This document shows, one piece after another, positions 36,923 through 45,139 of a DNA stretch of 64,000 nt. Every line of letters starts with the position of its first letter. Position 1 is the stretch's first letter. The position numbers and the translations under genes are program-made. Source of the stretch: Aquimarina sp. BL5 (lineage in GTDB: Bacteria > Bacteroidota > Bacteroidia > Flavobacteriales > Flavobacteriaceae); assembly GCF_003443675.1 (NCBI RefSeq), contig NZ_CP031963.1:124001-188000 (forward strand), in the 5' to 3' direction. Under the pieces are notes generated by a model. It ran no database searches. It was not told the origin of the DNA and saw only the letters and a program-made list of their open reading frames with translations.

Positions 36923-37225
36923 AGACTATAGTAAGCCCCAAATTAACTACACATAGATTAAAAAACAATTAACTGATTATAAGTAGATTGTTATGATTTA
37001 TGCCTAGTATATTTCTTATGTTATCATAATGTTATTAAGTAGACTCAATTCCATAAAGATTTCCCTGTATTTCGATAAAAAGGTTCTATATACTTTCTTA
37101 ACAACTAAAGAATTGGTTTGTTTCGCTTTTTTCTTATCCTGAAGTATATCTAAATTCGTCTTGTAAATCTTAACAGTATTCTTACTGAAAAGTTTAAAAT
37201 ATCTTTCTCTAACTAAAATTATTTT
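36923..37225. other. 303-base divergent intergenic region
   Basis: AT-rich spacer between the LpxH-like gene and bglX. Promoters for both must be here but no clear TAnnTTTG box or hairpin was found. Confidence 0.45.
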
Positions 37226-39514
37226 ATGACGTTTTTACAAATGAAAATTTATAATAGGTTGTCATTATTGTTAATCATATTTAGTGTATTTCTATCCTGT
37301 GAATCTAAAAATCTAGATACTTCAAAAAAAGATATAATAGAAGATCCAATTGAGAATAAAATTGATAGCATTCTTTCCAAGATGTCTTTAGAAGAGAAAA
37401 TTGGTCAAACTGCTCAAAGAGGTAAATCCAGTAGAGTAAAAGAATTACCTGCAGATCTTAAAGAAGCCGTGAGAAAAGGACAGATTGGTTCTTTTCTTAA
37501 TATTATGAATAAAAACGATGCTAAAGAATTACAAAGAATAGCCGTAGAAGAAAGCCCTAGTAAGATTCCATTAATTTTTGCACGAGATGTGATCCATGGA
37601 TTCAAAACAATTTTCCCTATTCCACTAGGGCAGGCGGCTTCATTTAATCCTCTGTTGGTAAAGGAAGGTTCTAGAGTAGCGGCGATAGAAGCAAGTACAA
37701 GTGGAATTAGATGGACTTTTGCTCCGATGTTAGATATATCAAGAGATCCTAGATGGGGTAGAATTGCTGAATCAGCGGGTGAAGATCCCTATTTGACAAG
37801 TGTAATGGCAGAAGCATATATAAAAGGTTTCCAAGGAGAAGATTTATCATCACCAACAAGTATGGCAGCCTGTGCAAAACATTTTATTGGATATGGAGCA
37901 GCAGAAGGAGGAAGAGATTACAATACGGCGAATATAAACGAAAATTTATTACATAATACGTATTTGAAGCCATTTAAGAAAGCTGTAGAAGCGGGTTCGG
38001 CAACATTTATGACCAGTTTTAATGAGCTTAACGGGGTTCCGGCGTCTGCCAATAAATATATTCTTAAAGATATTTTAAGAGATGAATGGGGATTCGATGG
38101 TTTTGTGGTGAGTGATTGGAATTCTATTATAGAGATGGTAAATCATGGATTTGCAAAAGATGAAAAAGAAGCAGCAGAGAAATCAATAAATGCAATGTTG
38201 GATATGGAAATGACTAGTACTTCATATCACGATCATCTAAAACAATTAATCAATGAAGGTAAGTTTTCTGAAAAACAATTGGATACAATTGTTAAGAATA
38301 TACTTCGTATAAAACTGCGATTAGGATTATTTGAGAATCCATATTTTGATCCTAATGATGCGATTCTTTATGATAAAAAACATTTAGCTTCGGCTCAAGA
38401 AACCGCTACAGAAAGTACGGTATTACTAAAAAATAAGAATAATTTATTACCGTTAAATTCCAAAAATAAATTAGCAATTATAGGTCCTTTGGCAAATGCT
38501 CCTCACGAACAATTAGGTACTTGGACTTTTGATGGCGAAAAAGAACATACCATTACTCCATTAAAATCATTTCAACAGGATGATCAGTATACAATTCAAT
38601 ACAGCGAAGGATTATCATACAGTAGAGATAAATCAACCGATGGTTTTGGTAATGCAATAAAAGCAGCAAAGTCTTCTGACGTGATTCTATTTTTTGCTGG
38701 AGAAGAAGCTATTTTATCTGGAGAAGCGCATAGTAGAGCTAGTATAAACCTTCCTGGAGGTCAAGAAGATTTAATCACAGAATTACATAAGACAGGAAAG
38801 CCTATTGTTTTAATTGTTATGGCAGGTAGACCAATTACATTAGGAAACATTATAGATAAGGTTGATGCCGTTTTAATGGCTTGGCATCCTGGAACTATGG
38901 GCGGGCCTGCTTTGAAAAATATTATAACCGGAAAAGTTTCCCCTTCAGGAAAACTGCCGATTACCTGGCCAAAAGAAGTAGGACAAATACCAATTCATTA
39001 CAATCATAAAAATACGGGTAGACCTGTGATTCCAGAAGAATTTGTGTATATGGATTCAATACCAATTGCGGCTTGGCAAAGTTCTCTGGGTAATACATCA
39101 CATTATCTGGATGCAGGTTTTTTACCACAATATCCTTTTGGGTATGGTTTAAGTTATAGTAATTTTAGATATGCTGATGTTAGTATTTCATCAACTAGCC
39201 CTAAGATTGGAGATACAATTACGGTAAAAGCTATGATTACCAATACAGGAAAAATTAAAGCCAAAGAAACCGTACAATTGTATTTTAGAGATATGGTTGG
39301 TAGTTTAACCAGACCAGTTAAAGAACTTTTACGATTTAAAAAAGTAACTTTAGAAGCAGGTGCTTCTAAAGAAGTTATATTTAATTTTTCTACAGATGAT
39401 TTGGCTTTTTATGGACCGGATAAAATATGGGTTACAGAACCAGGTGATTTTAAACTATGGGTAAGTAAACATTCGATGGATGAAGCGAATGAATTAGAAT
39501 TTACATTAGAATAA
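37226..39514 (+). CDS. bglX: GH3 beta-glucosidase, lipoprotein (BglX-like)
   Basis: A 762-residue family 3 glycoside hydrolase. A lipobox (SVFLSC) at the N-terminus suggests outer-membrane anchoring facing the periplasm; the Met at 37241 is an alternative start. The catalytic nucleophile Asp is in GFVVSDWNSI; RWTFAPMLDISRDPRWGRIAES and KHFIGYGAAEGGRDY are family markers, and a fibronectin-like C-terminal domain (PVKELLRFKKVTLEAG) is complete. It heads a run with gluconate genes, so it may feed glucose units into oxidation. Confidence 0.92.
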   Translation: MTFLQMKIYNRLSLLLIIFSVFLSCESKNLDTSKKDIIEDPIENKIDSILSKMSLEEKIGQTAQRGKSSRVKELPADLKEAVRKGQIGSFLNIMNKNDAKELQRIAVEESPSKIPLIFARDVIHGFKTIFPIPLGQAASFNPLLVKEGSRVAAIEASTSGIRWTFAPMLDISRDPRWGRIAESAGEDPYLTSVMAEAYIKGFQGEDLSSPTSMAACAKHFIGYGAAEGGRDYNTANINENLLHNTYLKPFKKAVEAGSATFMTSFNELNGVPASANKYILKDILRDEWGFDGFVVSDWNSIIEMVNHGFAKDEKEAAEKSINAMLDMEMTSTSYHDHLKQLINEGKFSEKQLDTIVKNILRIKLRLGLFENPYFDPNDAILYDKKHLASAQETATESTVLLKNKNNLLPLNSKNKLAIIGPLANAPHEQLGTWTFDGEKEHTITPLKSFQQDDQYTIQYSEGLSYSRDKSTDGFGNAIKAAKSSDVILFFAGEEAILSGEAHSRASINLPGGQEDLITELHKTGKPIVLIVMAGRPITLGNIIDKVDAVLMAWHPGTMGGPALKNIITGKVSPSGKLPITWPKEVGQIPIHYNHKNTGRPVIPEEFVYMDSIPIAAWQSSLGNTSHYLDAGFLPQYPFGYGLSYSNFRYADVSISSTSPKIGDTITVKAMITNTGKIKAKETVQLYFRDMVGSLTRPVKELLRFKKVTLEAGASKEVIFNFSTDDLAFYGPDKIWVTEPGDFKLWVSKHSMDEANELEFTLE

Positions 39515-39530
39515 AAGGAATAATAATATT

Positions 39531-41447
39531 GTGAGCAAAGGTATTGTATATATCATATATGGAGTTTCCGGAAGTGGAAAAACAACTATAGGAAAAAAGT
39601 TAGCTAAAGATTTAGATATTCCTTTTTTTGATGCAGATGACTTTCATCCAGAAAGTAATATTAAGAAAATGTCTGATGGATTTCCGCTTGATGATACAGA
39701 TAGGGAGCCTTGGTTACAAAAGATAGCGAATGAAATTAAAGTTTGGAACACTAAAAATGGAGCAGTATTAGCTTGTTCTGCCTTAAAAATAAAGTATAGA
39801 AAAACGCTAGGATCTATTGATGAAAAATACATAAAATGGATTTTCTTAGAAGGAAGTTATGATATGATTTCCAAACGCATGCAAGCAAGAAAAAATCATT
39901 TTTTCAAAAAAGAAATGTTGGTTTCTCAATTTGAAACCTTAGAAGGACCAGAAAAAGGGATTGTTATAACAGTTGATAAAAGTAGTGATGAAATTGTGAA
40001 TGAAATTAAATCTAAATTGGATACAAATAGATCGCAGTTAGGATTGATAGGATTAGGAGTGATGGGTAAGAGCTTAGCTAAAAACCTTTTATCTAAAAAC
40101 TTCACACTTTCTGTGTATAATAGGCAAGTGGATGATTATGAGGTTGATATCGCAAAAAAGTTTGTAAAGGAGCAGCCTGATAACCATATGGTACTAGGGT
40201 TTGATAATTTAAAATCATTTGTAGACTCTATAGAACAACCTCGTACCATTATACTTATGGTCAATGCCGGGAAACCGGTGGATGTGGTGATTGAAGCATT
40301 AGTACCATTTTTATCGAAAGATGATTGTGTTGTTGATGGAGGAAATTCTCATTATAAATCAACATTAGAGAGAAGCGATAGATTAATTGATAAAGGAATC
40401 CATTTTTTAGGAGCAGGTATTTCTGGAGGAGAAGAAGGAGCTTTAAAAGGTCCTTCGATTATGCCTGGAGGATCAAAGAAAGCTTATAATAGATCAGGAA
40501 ATTTTTTAGAAGCTATTGCGGCGAGAGATAAAGCAAATAATCCATGTTGTGAATATATTGGGCCAGAAGGATCAGGACATTATGTAAAAATGGTTCATAA
40601 CGGTATCGAATATGCAGAGATGCAATTGTTAGCGGAAACCTATCATGTCTTGCGTTTTTATGCAAAGAAAAATCCTGATCAAATAGCAGCTATTTTTAAT
40701 ATTTGGAGAAATAATGGATTAGATAGTTATTTGCTCGAAATTACGGCCGATATTCTTCTTAAAAAAGAGGGAGATGATTTTCTAATAGATAAAGTACTGG
40801 ATAAAGCAGGGCAGAAGGGAACAGGTGGTTGGTCTACGAATGCTGCTTTAGAAGTCGGAATGCCGTTATCTACGATTTCAGAATCTGTAATGGCCCGTAA
40901 CATTTCTGGAATCAAATCCAAACGTGTTGAAGCTTCAGAAAAATATCAGCTAAAAACATATAGTATTTCTTCAAATGATACCATATTTATTGAAAATTTA
41001 GAAAAAGCTTTCAGAACGGCAAGTGTTATTAATCATCATATCGGTTTTGAGCTAATAAAAGAAGCTTCTAACGAATACAACTGGGAACTGAACCTTTCTA
41101 AAATAGCCAGAATATGGACAAACGGTTGTATCATACGAAGTGATTTAATGGAGCAAATTTGGAAGTTGTTTTTAAATGATAATGACACCTCTCTGTTACT
41201 ACTTCCGGATATAATCATAACTGTAAAATCAGATATTCATTCACTAACGGAAACCGTTGCTGCCGGACTTACATCAGGATTTTCTCTACCAGTATTTTCG
41301 GCAGCGGCGAACTACTTTTTAGCATATACATCGGCTCAGTCTTCGGCCAACATCATACAAGCGCAAAGGGATTATTTTGGAGCACATACCTATCAAAGAG
41401 TAGATACATCGCTAGATGAATATTTTCATACAAACTGGAAACACTAA
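39531..41447 (+). CDS. Gluconokinase::6-phosphogluconate dehydrogenase fusion
   Basis: A 638-residue bifunctional enzyme starting with GTG. Residues 1-160 are gluconokinase (GVSGSGKTTIGKKLA P-loop; DADDFHPESNIKKMSDG; ACSALKIKYRKTL). Residues ~165-638 are a complete 6-phosphogluconate dehydrogenase (LIGLGVMGKSLAKNL; VDGGNSHYKST; GAGISGGEEGALKGPS; catalytic Lys in HYVKMVHNGIEY). One chain would turn gluconate into 6-phosphogluconate and then ribulose 5-phosphate, CO2 and NADPH. It lies 3 bases before gntP. Confidence 0.92.
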   Translation: MSKGIVYIIYGVSGSGKTTIGKKLAKDLDIPFFDADDFHPESNIKKMSDGFPLDDTDREPWLQKIANEIKVWNTKNGAVLACSALKIKYRKTLGSIDEKYIKWIFLEGSYDMISKRMQARKNHFFKKEMLVSQFETLEGPEKGIVITVDKSSDEIVNEIKSKLDTNRSQLGLIGLGVMGKSLAKNLLSKNFTLSVYNRQVDDYEVDIAKKFVKEQPDNHMVLGFDNLKSFVDSIEQPRTIILMVNAGKPVDVVIEALVPFLSKDDCVVDGGNSHYKSTLERSDRLIDKGIHFLGAGISGGEEGALKGPSIMPGGSKKAYNRSGNFLEAIAARDKANNPCCEYIGPEGSGHYVKMVHNGIEYAEMQLLAETYHVLRFYAKKNPDQIAAIFNIWRNNGLDSYLLEITADILLKKEGDDFLIDKVLDKAGQKGTGGWSTNAALEVGMPLSTISESVMARNISGIKSKRVEASEKYQLKTYSISSNDTIFIENLEKAFRTASVINHHIGFELIKEASNEYNWELNLSKIARIWTNGCIIRSDLMEQIWKLFLNDNDTSLLLLPDIIITVKSDIHSLTETVAAGLTSGFSLPVFSAAANYFLAYTSAQSSANIIQAQRDYFGAHTYQRVDTSLDEYFHTNWKH

Positions 41448-41450
41448 TTT

Positions 41451-42794
41451 ATGGACTATCAATTATTAATTGCTGTCGGAGTAGGTATCATTGCATTGCT
41501 TTTTATGATCCTGAAATTAAGAATGCAAGCATTTATTGCACTGCTTATCGTTTGTATATTGGTGGGAATTGTTGCTGGATTACCAGCAGAAGAAATTCTT
41601 ACTAGTATTAAGAATGGAATGGGAGGAACACTTGGTTTTGTAGCAACTGTTGTGGGGCTTGGAGCATTATTTGGTGGATTGTTAGAAAACTCAGGAGGGG
41701 CACAAGGATTGGCAAATTATATACTAAAATTAGCTGGAGAAAAAAATGCATCCTGGGCATTGATGATCACTGGGTTCATCATTGCAATACCCGTTTTTTT
41801 TGATGTGGCTTTTATTATTTTAGTACCAATAGTATATGCAATTGCCAGAAAAACCAAAAAATCTTTATTGCTCTATGCAATTCCATTATTAGCTGGATTA
41901 GCAATTACACATAGTTTTATACCACCAACTCCTGGTCCAGTCGCTGTAGCTGATATATTGGGAGCTAATCTTGGATGGGTCATTGTATTTGGATTTATTA
42001 CAGGTGTTCCTGCTGCGATAATTAGTGGACCAATATTGGGAAAACACCTTGCTAATAAAATAGATATCACGATTCCTGAGGCTAATGATTCTAATATAAG
42101 AATGGATAATACTCCTAATCCTATTGGTATTATTATAATTATTACGTTACCCATTTTATTAATAGTATTAAAAACAGTTTTGCTGGGCGATTGGTTTAAG
42201 GAAGATGTGTTACCGCAATCAATGATATATATAATAACTCTTTTAGGGCACCCTTTTACTGCTTTGATTATAGCAAATTTAATTGCTTGGTATTTTCTCG
42301 GAATTAAAAGAGGAGTTACTAGAGATGAACTTTTGAAAATTTCAATGAAATCATTCAAACCAGCAGGAGCCATTATCTTACTAACTGGTGCTGGTGGAGC
42401 TTTTAAACAAATATTAGTAGACACCAAAGCAGGGGAATTATTAGCTTCTTCGTTACAGAGTTCATACATCCACCCATTGTTATTTGCATTTATAGTTGCG
42501 GCTTTGATTAGAGTTTTACAAGGTTCTGCTACGACCGCTATGATTGCAGCTGCAGGTATTACCTCACCGATTATTCTTGCTGGAGATTTTAGTGCTGCAC
42601 AGATTGCTCTTTTTGTAATTTCCATTGCTTCGGGAGCAACGATCTTATCTCATGTGAATGATAGTGGATTTTGGTTAGTAGGACAATATCTGGGAATGAC
42701 AGAGAAACAAACCTTTCGTTCCTGGACTGTTATGACAACTCTTATTGCAATTACTGGAGTTTTGATGTCTTTGTTATTATGGTATGTTTTTTAG
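41451..42794 (+). CDS. gntP: Gluconate:H+ symporter
   Basis: A 447-residue inner-membrane transporter of the GntP family with about 12 hydrophobic segments. LGALFGGLLENSGGAQGLA, FFDVAFIILVP, HSFIPPTPGPVA and LQGSATTAMIAAAG are family signatures. Start is 3 bases after the fusion gene, so kinase, dehydrogenase and transporter are one operon for gluconate use. Confidence 0.94.
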   Translation: MDYQLLIAVGVGIIALLFMILKLRMQAFIALLIVCILVGIVAGLPAEEILTSIKNGMGGTLGFVATVVGLGALFGGLLENSGGAQGLANYILKLAGEKNASWALMITGFIIAIPVFFDVAFIILVPIVYAIARKTKKSLLLYAIPLLAGLAITHSFIPPTPGPVAVADILGANLGWVIVFGFITGVPAAIISGPILGKHLANKIDITIPEANDSNIRMDNTPNPIGIIIIITLPILLIVLKTVLLGDWFKEDVLPQSMIYIITLLGHPFTALIIANLIAWYFLGIKRGVTRDELLKISMKSFKPAGAIILLTGAGGAFKQILVDTKAGELLASSLQSSYIHPLLFAFIVAALIRVLQGSATTAMIAAAGITSPIILAGDFSAAQIALFVISIASGATILSHVNDSGFWLVGQYLGMTEKQTFRSWTVMTTLIAITGVLMSLLLWYVF

Positions 42795-42934
42795 CCAGTC
42801 TTTAGAAACTATTCCAAAGGAAATAAACTAAAACATATGATTCAGTTAAAAACTAGTTAACTACCCATTTCGGGTGGCAATGCTACTATTAACAAGATGT
42901 AGTTTTAGATGATTAACAATTTAAATGAAGTACT

Positions 42935-43069
42935 ATGAAAACATTAAATGATCTTAAGATACTGTATAAAGAATTAGAAAGAGACGAAAAATATAAAATT
43001 AATGGAGGTGCTCAACAAAAATCCGTTGTTGTATGGTGCAGAATGGCAATTAGTTATGAGCCATGTTAA
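42935..43069 (+). CDS. Double-glycine leader peptide (44 aa)
   Basis: A short ORF of 44 residues, below usual gene-call cutoffs. Residues 1-25 resemble a GG-type leader: amphipathic helix MKTLNDLKILYKELERDEKY followed by KINGG, with Gly24-Gly25 at the expected cleavage point. The remaining 19 residues, AQQKSVVVWCRMAISYEPC, hold two Cys (core positions 10 and 19) and Trp/Tyr. GG leaders direct peptides to C39-peptidase ABC exporters (family knowledge); none is in the window. It lies between gntP and a 7-TM AraC regulator on the same strand. It could be a pheromone, bacteriocin-like or RiPP precursor. Confidence 0.72.
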   Translation: MKTLNDLKILYKELERDEKYKINGGAQQKSVVVWCRMAISYEPC

Positions 43070-43195
43070 TAATTGTTTGGATTACTAAAGAATGAATATT
43101 TTGGTTTCAGGTCTATTTTGAAATATATAATTCTATTATTCTTTATAGAATCATTAGTATGAACAAAGAGTAAAAATTACTTTCTTTGTTTGACA

Positions 43196-44239
43196 ATGAA
43201 TCCGGAAGTTTTTAAACATATCGAATTATTATTAGGGAGTATTGGTTTTATAATCGCATTATTCTTTGGATTATTCTTGATAATAACAAAAAAAGAGCGT
43301 GCTAGTGCGAATGTTTTTCTGGCGATTTATCTCTTAGCTTTTAGCCTTAGAATTGGTAAATCTCTATTCTATAATTACTTTCCAATTGACCCTGTAATAA
43401 GGAATGTTTTTCTTGGAATGTTATTAGCTATTGGCCCTTCATTATGGTTTTATGCAACGAGATTATTTTTCACTAACGAAATAAGGAACAGTAGGTCAAT
43501 TTTGATTCAGTATGCTCCATTACTTTTATTTGTAATATTTTGTTGGATAATCCCAAATGATGATTCAATATCTTCCAGAATAATTTTTCTAGGATTATTA
43601 TCCCATATTTTGTTATACGGGTTATATACTTTGTATTGGTTGTTTACTAGTAAGAATCAATCTAATCATAAATCGTATAAGGTGTATCATTGGTTATTGT
43701 TTTTTACAATGCTTACCATTGGGATGTCACTTATTCAGATGGGAGTGTTTTTGCGCATAGTACCGTATTTAAGTACAGCTTTTTTATTCTCAGCGATAGT
43801 TCTTGTTTTATTAATCTATGCTCTAAGGAATCCTTTTTTGTTTAAGATTGAAAACAAAAAGTATGCTAATTCTTCTTTAAATGATGAAAATGCAAAAACG
43901 TATTTAGATCAGTTGACATATCTAATGGAGGAAGAAAAATTGTTTCTGGATCCTAAGATTACATTAATTAAACTTAGTAACAGAATAGGAATAACCTCTA
44001 AGCAACTATCTCAAGTTATTAATCAGAATAAAAAGGAAAATTACTCACAGTATATTGCAAGATATCGAATAGCAGAAGCAAAGCGATTATTACACTTACC
44101 AGAATATCAAAACTTTAAAATATCCAGTATTGCATATGATTGTGGGTTTAACAGTATATCTTCTTTTAACACAGCTTTTAAAAAGTTGACGAATACAACT
44201 GCAGTTCAATACAGAGAGGCCCAATTAAAATCTTTATAG
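43196..44239 (+). CDS. 7-TM AraC-family transcriptional regulator
   Basis: A 347-residue membrane regulator starting at ATG 43196 (an upstream TTG at 43190 is less likely). About seven membrane segments fill residues 5-225; the C-terminal ~100 residues are an AraC/XylS HTH pair (KITLIKLSNRIGITSKQLSQVINQNKK ... YRIAEAKRLL ... ISSIAYDCGFNSISSFNTAFKKLTN). Such proteins may sense an external signal and bind DNA from the membrane. Its gene starts 126 bases after the GG peptide, which is a natural candidate ligand or target. Confidence 0.88.
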   Translation: MNPEVFKHIELLLGSIGFIIALFFGLFLIITKKERASANVFLAIYLLAFSLRIGKSLFYNYFPIDPVIRNVFLGMLLAIGPSLWFYATRLFFTNEIRNSRSILIQYAPLLLFVIFCWIIPNDDSISSRIIFLGLLSHILLYGLYTLYWLFTSKNQSNHKSYKVYHWLLFFTMLTIGMSLIQMGVFLRIVPYLSTAFLFSAIVLVLLIYALRNPFLFKIENKKYANSSLNDENAKTYLDQLTYLMEEEKLFLDPKITLIKLSNRIGITSKQLSQVINQNKKENYSQYIARYRIAEAKRLLHLPEYQNFKISSIAYDCGFNSISSFNTAFKKLTNTTAVQYREAQLKSL

Positions 44240-44366: not shown

Positions 44367-45139
44367 TCAATGCACAACTTGGATTTCATTTCCTGTAATC
44401 CAACTTTTTATCAGTTGTTCGTTCGTACTAATCTCTGCAAGATAGAATTTATTGTAGGAGGCAAAAACAATTGAATCTTCAATTTTCTCGATTTCTACTC
44501 CTTTATAATCCATATAGTTTGAATGAATTAAATATAGTTGTCCATTTTCCTTAAAAATATATCCAACGTGGCTAGCATCAAATCCAATGAAATGGATTCC
44601 GTCTTTTAAACTCTTATTGATCATTGAGATATTTTCTTCAATAGAATTTTCGGAAATTTCAATTACTTGATTGTTAAGCGCTAAACTTTTCGCTTCATCT
44701 ATTGGAGATTGTTGAGCAAGCTTGTATCGATTTAAGTTTATTCCAGCATCTTTTAATGTTGTCGAAACAAAATACCCACAGGCAATTTTTCCTTTCTTTG
44801 GGATCGATGTATGCCCTTCAAACGACCATTCGGTTCCTTCCCAAAAAGGGATTATTCTATTGATCAAAGAATGGGTAAAGACATTTGATATCGAATCAAT
44901 AGATAATTCTTTGTTTTTTAGTTCTACTTTACACTTTTAATTTGACTTTTTACCAATCCATAACTTTTAAGCGAATCATTTTCTGATTTTAATTCTTTAA
45001 GAGTCTTTATAAGATCTTTTTTGACTAAAAGAATAACTTCAGTCTTGTTATTTTCAGAAGTATTTGAAGCTTCCTTGCCATTCTGTCCAATACATCCAAA
45101 GTGCATTAACAAGAATATTGTCAAAACGAATTTATTCAT
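44367..45139 (-). pseudogene. Lipoprotein with NlpC/P60-like C-terminal domain, interrupted by a frameshift
   Basis: Two adjacent minus-strand ORFs join into one plausible protein. The first (45139-44924, 71 aa) has a lipobox (MHFGCIG) and a helical stretch ending ...SQIKSVK*. The second frame is open from just after a TAA at 44937-44939 through 44367 and carries ACGYFVSTTL (Cys nucleophile-like) and DASHVGYI (His-like), an NlpC/P60-type pattern. A -1 shift around 44930 joins VKSQIKSVK to KVELKNKE directly. Either a frameshift mutation, a sequencing error or, less likely, two genes. The joined product would be about 250 residues. Confidence 0.6.

Follow-up and report, generated by a model that had tools for sequence, protein, structure and literature searches.

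Sequence comparison indicates that the 44-residue open reading frame lying between the gluconate genes and a membrane-type AraC regulator in the window (the whole stretch of 64,000 nucleotides analysed here, G000:C1:124001-188000, from the single 6.01 Mb contig of the Aquimarina sp. BL5 genome, G000) is a real, evolutionarily conserved gene. Its product is best read as an orphan peptide, probably exported, whose core is constrained, and as an accessory of the gluconate locus; the adjacent regulator is separable from it. An earlier note on this DNA had described a leader ending in INGG, a 19-residue core with two Cys and one Trp, and the order gluconate genes, peptide and AraC regulator on one strand, all of which was confirmed by the translation of the ORF and by the gene positions (Table 1). 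The block runs bglX, gntK-gnd fusion, gntP, peptide and araC, all on the forward strand; the genes upstream of the peptide are closely spaced, and the peptide ORF itself is placed 140 bp past gntP and 129 bp ahead of the araC ATG, which is the probable start of that gene (the listed ORF begins at the TTG at 43190). The seven transmembrane (7-TM) segments attributed to the regulator hold as a prediction, since a simple Kyte-Doolittle scan yielded seven hydrophobic segments; together with the HTH_18 domain at residues 259-340, these give the protein the combination, by hydropathy, that defines a membrane AraC/XylS regulator. Likewise, the peptide has the Gly-Gly/Ala/Ser ending of a 15-30 residue leader. 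It matched no NCBIfam family up to E=1, and the protein database holds eight records for it, designated "hypothetical protein" wherever a name is given. Among the matches listed in a literature search (titles and the starts of abstracts), none dealt with this peptide, with a 7-TM AraC/GG pair or with Flavobacteriaceae pairs of TPR-HTH_18 regulators and lanthipeptide-type leaders.

Table 1. Positions of the peptide gene, its neighbours and nearby repeats in the window.
Feature	Position	Strand	Basis
BglX-type GH3 beta-glucosidase, first in the conserved block	37226..39514	+	NF011678 above cut-off; synteny
Gluconokinase / 6-phosphogluconate dehydrogenase fusion (gntK-gnd)	39531..41447	+	TIGR01313 and TIGR00873 above cut-off
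GntP gluconate:H+ symporter	41451..42794	+	PF02447 E=1.8e-137, TIGR00791
Direct repeat GTTAA-N6-GTTAAC, upstream of the peptide	42845..42861	+	alignment, sequences, scan
GG-leader peptide precursor gene, 44 aa	42935..43069	+	ORF reading; orthologues; purifying selection
Leader, 25 residues, terminal INGG, MKTLNDLKILYKELERDEKYKINGG	42935..43009	+	GG at 24-25
Core, 19 residues, AQQKSVVVWCRMAISYEPC, Trp at 9, Cys at 10 and 19	43010..43066	+	
Inverted repeat AACAAAG...CTTTGTT, directly before the araC start	43161..43191	+	alignment, folding
AraC-type regulator, seven predicted TM segments then HTH_18	43199..44239	+	PF12833 E=1.7e-16; hydropathy

The first line of evidence came from the distribution of the peptide among relatives. 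A search of 140 genomes, the own genome included, returned strong matches in seven (own, G028, G033, G017, G025, G043 and G037; E from 4e-26 to 2e-8), all within the genus Aquimarina, hence an intact peptide in 7 of the 66 genomes of that genus, and gntP directly precedes the copy in every one of them. The earlier note had proposed looking for relatives with a kept leader and for frameshifts or stops in them; the GG is invariant and the reading frame is kept in all seven, though the copy in A. amphilecti (G032; L126/L009), matched at E = 0.003, is a decayed remnant that lacks the start of the leader and carries a CAA repeat where the core begins. The remaining matches in this search were 13 weak ones (E>0.1). 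No full-length relative was found beyond the genus in 397 genomes of the family, mostly of other genera: besides the own genome, 14 of them matched at E<=0.05, only over part of the profile, and these candidates were rejected as homologues of the full peptide.

The second line of evidence was provided by the codons. For 16 of the 21 pairs among the seven orthologues dN/dS lay between 0.09 and 0.51, with several dS values above 1 and the highest ratio, 0.51, in the closest differing pair (own and G028); four of the other pairs were saturated (own or G028 with G025 or G043), and G025 and G043 are identical in protein. Summed Nd/N was highest in the leader (0.190), lower in the core (0.131) and lowest in the first 14 residues of the core (0.076), while Sd/S was alike in the three (0.46, 0.56 and 0.53, respectively). 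The codon changes thus show purifying selection, stronger in the core than in the leader, and a core more constrained than its leader suits a peptide that binds one fixed target (a receptor ligand or signal) more readily than a toxin under diversification. In the ten aligned sequences, some of them nearly alike, the GG is invariant and its flanking residues are variable; in sequences of the G025/G043 type, a Ser replaces the first Cys and two Cys lie further on. These data add a small conserved peptide family, whose strongly constrained QKSVVIWCRMA-like core is easily synthesised.

The relationship with the neighbouring regulator proved to be looser than had been supposed. AraC orthologues, defined at 68% identity or more, were found in ten genomes of the genus (at most 32 candidates per genome were scored), and the peptide is intact in six of these, decayed in one (G032) and absent from three. 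In G042 and G008 araC directly follows gntP, and in G013 a 274-aa ORF on the opposite strand separates the two genes. The peptide adjoins araC in six of the seven genomes with an intact copy; in the seventh, G037, it follows gntP and the remaining 188 bp to the contig end contain no araC, the best AraC match in that genome (32 of 105 candidates scored) being a 45% paralogue on another contig. Since 4 of 10 genomes have AraC but no intact peptide, and one of the seven with the peptide shows no AraC beside it (at a contig end), the two genes are not kept or lost together, and an obligate pair was rejected. In the AraC tree the peptide-less genomes are scattered, with several nodes weakly supported (45, 53 and 69), and the GntP tree, in which two rows are truncated, has a different topology, grouping G042 and G008 with the peptide-bearing G037. 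On either tree, repeated loss of the peptide with retention of the regulator would be the simplest, albeit unproven, reading, and it would follow that the AraC protein most probably works for the gluconate operon or for itself, with no need of the peptide. Outside the genus, gnt genes were lacking from the 21-kb loci of homologues of this AraC (51-54% identity) in Ulvibacter, Dokdonia, Winogradskyella, Croceitalea and Lacinutrix, and no GG-leader-like ORF was seen in the 8-13 kb inspected.

Whether the leader fits the GG-export class was considered at the level of single positions and of profiles. According to the available extracts of PMC6363468, recognition by C39 proteases involves positions -4, -7 and -12, and the ComA pattern is Leu(-12)-X3-Glu(-8)-Leu(-7). 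The window leader fits with I(-4), E(-8) and L(-12) and deviates with K(-7). Against an independent profile of the other GG leaders of the genome it scored 2.8 bits, a value equalled by 429 of 1000 shuffles, and the leaders of G028, G033, G017 and G025 were reached by between 148 and 914 of 1000. The leader of the most distant orthologue, that of G037, scored 15.5 bits, reached by none of 1000 shuffles, and was the sole clear one of the six scored. A leave-out test within the window ranked the own leader tenth among the ORFs, below the top scores of shuffled windows, whereas a profile-profile comparison of the six orthologue leaders with the independent leader profile gave a probability of 92%. 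Since one orthologue is clear and the profiles match, a canonical GG leader was probably ancestral to the family, and the window leader has since drifted. The stronger statement that the window leader clearly belongs to the GG family of the genome was dropped, as profile A2, on whose match it stood, contained the window leader itself. The classification as a GG-type precursor made in the earlier note therefore stands as far as the invariant GG and the presence of a C39 exporter in the genome are concerned, and does not stand on the window leader alone, which is not above shuffles.

A C39 ABC exporter, for which the earlier note had suggested a search elsewhere in the genome, was indeed found, in the company of HlyD and C39-VKOR-thioredoxin proteins. 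It is a 734-aa protein (G000 5435494-5437695) with C39, ABC_membrane and ABC_tran domains, and a HlyD gene adjoins it. The region around it (L057, G000:C1:5428000-5447000) also contains two GG peptides and one of the C39-VKOR-thioredoxin proteins; the other lies at 2774000-2788000 (L058), again with GG peptides nearby. The two regions likely serve the GG peptides of this genome in general, as their machinery for export and oxidation. The exporter occurs in 56 of the 66 genus genomes at E<=1e-100, and each of the 11 genomes of the own clade has it with at least 95% identity, a conservation to be expected because many other GG-leader places exist in the genome. No exporter gene is linked to the peptide at its locus, and export in trans through the chromosomal C39 exporter is plausible.

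These observations could be integrated in an explanation to which we attach moderate confidence: that the gene encodes a genuine precursor of a short, probably secreted peptide and is an accessory of the gluconate locus. Briefly, the leader would be recognised by the chromosomal C39 exporter and cleaved after the GG, in trans and with HlyD, and the core might then be oxidised by either of the two C39-VKOR-thioredoxin proteins. The peptide gene would have been lost repeatedly and the AraC gene kept. In favour of this explanation were counted the synteny, the selection on the core, the invariant GG, the G037 leader, the exporter set and the scattered absences; against it, the five leaders no better than shuffles (own, G028, G033, G017 and G025), the K(-7), the unlinked exporter, the shifting Cys and the conflict between the trees. 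Like the GG precursors served by C39/PCAT exporters (colicin V, class II bacteriocins and ComC-type pheromones), the peptide is short, has a GG site and aliphatic residues at -4 and -12, and comes from a genome with such an exporter; unlike them, its gene is an orphan located far from the exporter, its leader has diverged and its core is very short.

An unlikely alternative is that the product is a bacteriocin-like antimicrobial peptide, exported by the same C39 machinery. Such peptides would not be out of place in this genome, where the GG-leader profile, which included the window leader, matches 38 places at E<0.05, many of them small Cys-rich ORFs among the part inspected, and the window peptide itself is patchily present among the genomes of the genus. 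In addition, bacteroidetocins employ a C39 exporter and a thiol oxidoreductase, according to the part of PMC6671954 that was available, and resemble the window peptide in being GG peptides of Bacteroidota with Cys, for which disulfide-type enzymes are at hand. However, the same extracts describe bacteroidetocins as having leaders of 15-16 aa and 42-aa cores with four Cys, their exporter and thiol oxidoreductase being linked, so that the window peptide, with its 25-aa leader, 19-aa core, two Cys and nothing linked, falls outside the class as described there. Its core is very short and conserved rather than diversifying, no exporter gene lies alongside, and no NCBIfam family is matched. The other GG peptides of the genome share with it the leader plan M-K-x-L...L-x-K...I-x-GG; unlike it, they are mostly Cys-rich and have longer cores. 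Weak matches to the Chryseo leader family (NF047798, leader_Chryseo) were obtained for 3 of the 28 scanned GG peptides of the own genome, and none for the window peptide.

A stronger lead than the window pair for a link between peptides and regulators was found in a separate class of genes. In the own genome, 13 HTH_18 genes have open frames in the range 553-589 aa. Ten of them belong to a TPR-type class whose members have a single internal TM segment and, in some cases, an N-terminal one as well; TPR repeats match in nine of the ten (L137 below the Pfam cut-off), L141 being the exception. The remaining three comprise a GAF protein (L134) and two proteins with a different N-terminus (L133). 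At seven of the ten TPR-type regulators (loci among L137-L142), GG peptides lie about 100-180 bp downstream on the same strand, and the class I lanthipeptide leader model NF038153 matches 11 of 14 such peptides at E<=0.1. One locus (L139:3681-4781) has four tandem GG peptides behind a single TPR-HTH_18 gene, with an STKTLP motif in every C-terminal part. In four other genomes a leader-only profile gave 19 matches in 16 regions; 13 of these regions (L162-L166, L169, L170 and L172-L177) contain an HTH_18 gene of 556-588 residues, classed by HTH_18 and size alone with a home-made HTH profile on the fetched regions, and 16 of the 19 matches lie downstream of such a large gene on the same strand. 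These large HTH_18 regulators are possible membrane peptide receptors. The window peptide, without a match to NF038153 in the NCBIfam scan up to E=1, does not fall clearly into either the ordinary-GG or the lanthipeptide-type class. The accessible parts of two papers are relevant in this respect: PMC10352776 describes two Bacteroidales RiPP clusters with TPR genes and mentions a possible pheromone role, and PMC10075063 treats RRNPP systems in Firmicutes.

From this class a wider and rather doubtful proposal may be drawn: that many exported GG peptides of Aquimarina are ligands of membrane AraC-type one-component regulators, mainly of the TPR-HTH_18 proteins, with TPR across the TM helix from the cytoplasmic HTH_18, paired with lanthipeptide-type peptides, the window pair being a minor, gluconate-tied variant. 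If true, this would be a Gram-negative counterpart to ComCDE/RRNPP signalling, and the linkage of TPR-HTH_18 genes to GG peptides makes one-component peptide sensing in Bacteroidota directly testable.

The narrower idea of the earlier note, namely that the 7-TM AraC next door either senses the mature peptide as a ligand or controls its production, must be considered improbable and was left unsupported by the distribution of the two genes. The adjacency on one strand recalls the ComCDE and RRNPP pheromone/receptor pairs, in which a small peptide gene lies beside a regulator gene; unlike in those systems, the regulator here persists without the peptide. To our knowledge, 7-TM AraC proteins are not among the known classes of pheromone receptors. 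A test prompted by the same data found 5 of 28 GG clusters of the own genome within 1 kb of an HTH_18 gene, with 1.1 expected (9 of 2000 circular shifts), and another 7-TM-type AraC gene of this genome is preceded, at 273 bp and on the same strand, by a GG-like (IIAG) peptide (L151:6018-6227). However, one of the five clusters is the window's own and three are at long HTH_18 genes of the different class. Moreover, of 39 regions fetched around ordinary GG leaders in G025 and G019, 3 contained an HTH_18 gene; this control omits the window orthologue at G025 1850945, G025 1090384, 293294 and 4426719, three G025 matches within lanthipeptide-leader regions (one of these, 4498917, shares its region with a regulator of the large HTH_18 class) and every one of the 11 matches in G003 and G010. 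A general link between ordinary GG peptides and AraC proteins, hinted at in the own genome and not seen in these two, was thus rejected. In 17 AraC paralogue loci from 17 genomes (36-39% identity, L040-L056), inspection by eye revealed no GG-leader peptide immediately upstream.

Of similarly low probability is the notion of a small intracellular protein acting on GntP or AraC, with the GG as a relic of an export leader no longer used. The constant position after gntP and the drift of the leaders of the window and its nearer relatives from the consensus would agree with it; the invariance of the GG amid variable flanks and the canonical leader retained in the G037 orthologue argue against it. 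Finally, a spurious ORF within a conserved untranslated region, as its shortness, the four AraC-bearing genomes with a decayed or absent copy and the unexceptional leader might suggest, is hardly credible, being largely refuted by the codon pattern and the frame kept in seven genomes, with a structured RNA over the region also rejected (a single Rfam match, weak at 20.1 bits where the gathering score is 86).

Several elements accompany the coding sequences of the gluconate locus. The direct repeat upstream of the peptide is partly or wholly retained in the peptide-bearing genomes and in G032, and no intact copy was seen by eye in G042 or G008. The inverted repeat before araC folds as a hairpin in eight of nine properly cut stretches, the exception being G032; G017 shows it in its alignment row, and it is also present where the peptide is absent, with altered bases in G042 and G008. 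Promoters of the sigma-70 type and terminators were in no excess over shuffles, and an operator common to bglX and the peptide is not claimed, given just a loose TTAAC resemblance noted by eye. Downstream of araC, on the reverse strand, an ORF of 166 aa (44367-44867) with a weak, below cut-off NlpC/P60 match is 82-86% identical to 257-aa proteins of G013 and G017, and is hence shorter here. At the other end of the block, a stretch of about 110 bases ahead of bglX (about 37080-37190 of the window) is strongly conserved in all eight genomes aligned and is likely a regulatory region of the gluconate operon.
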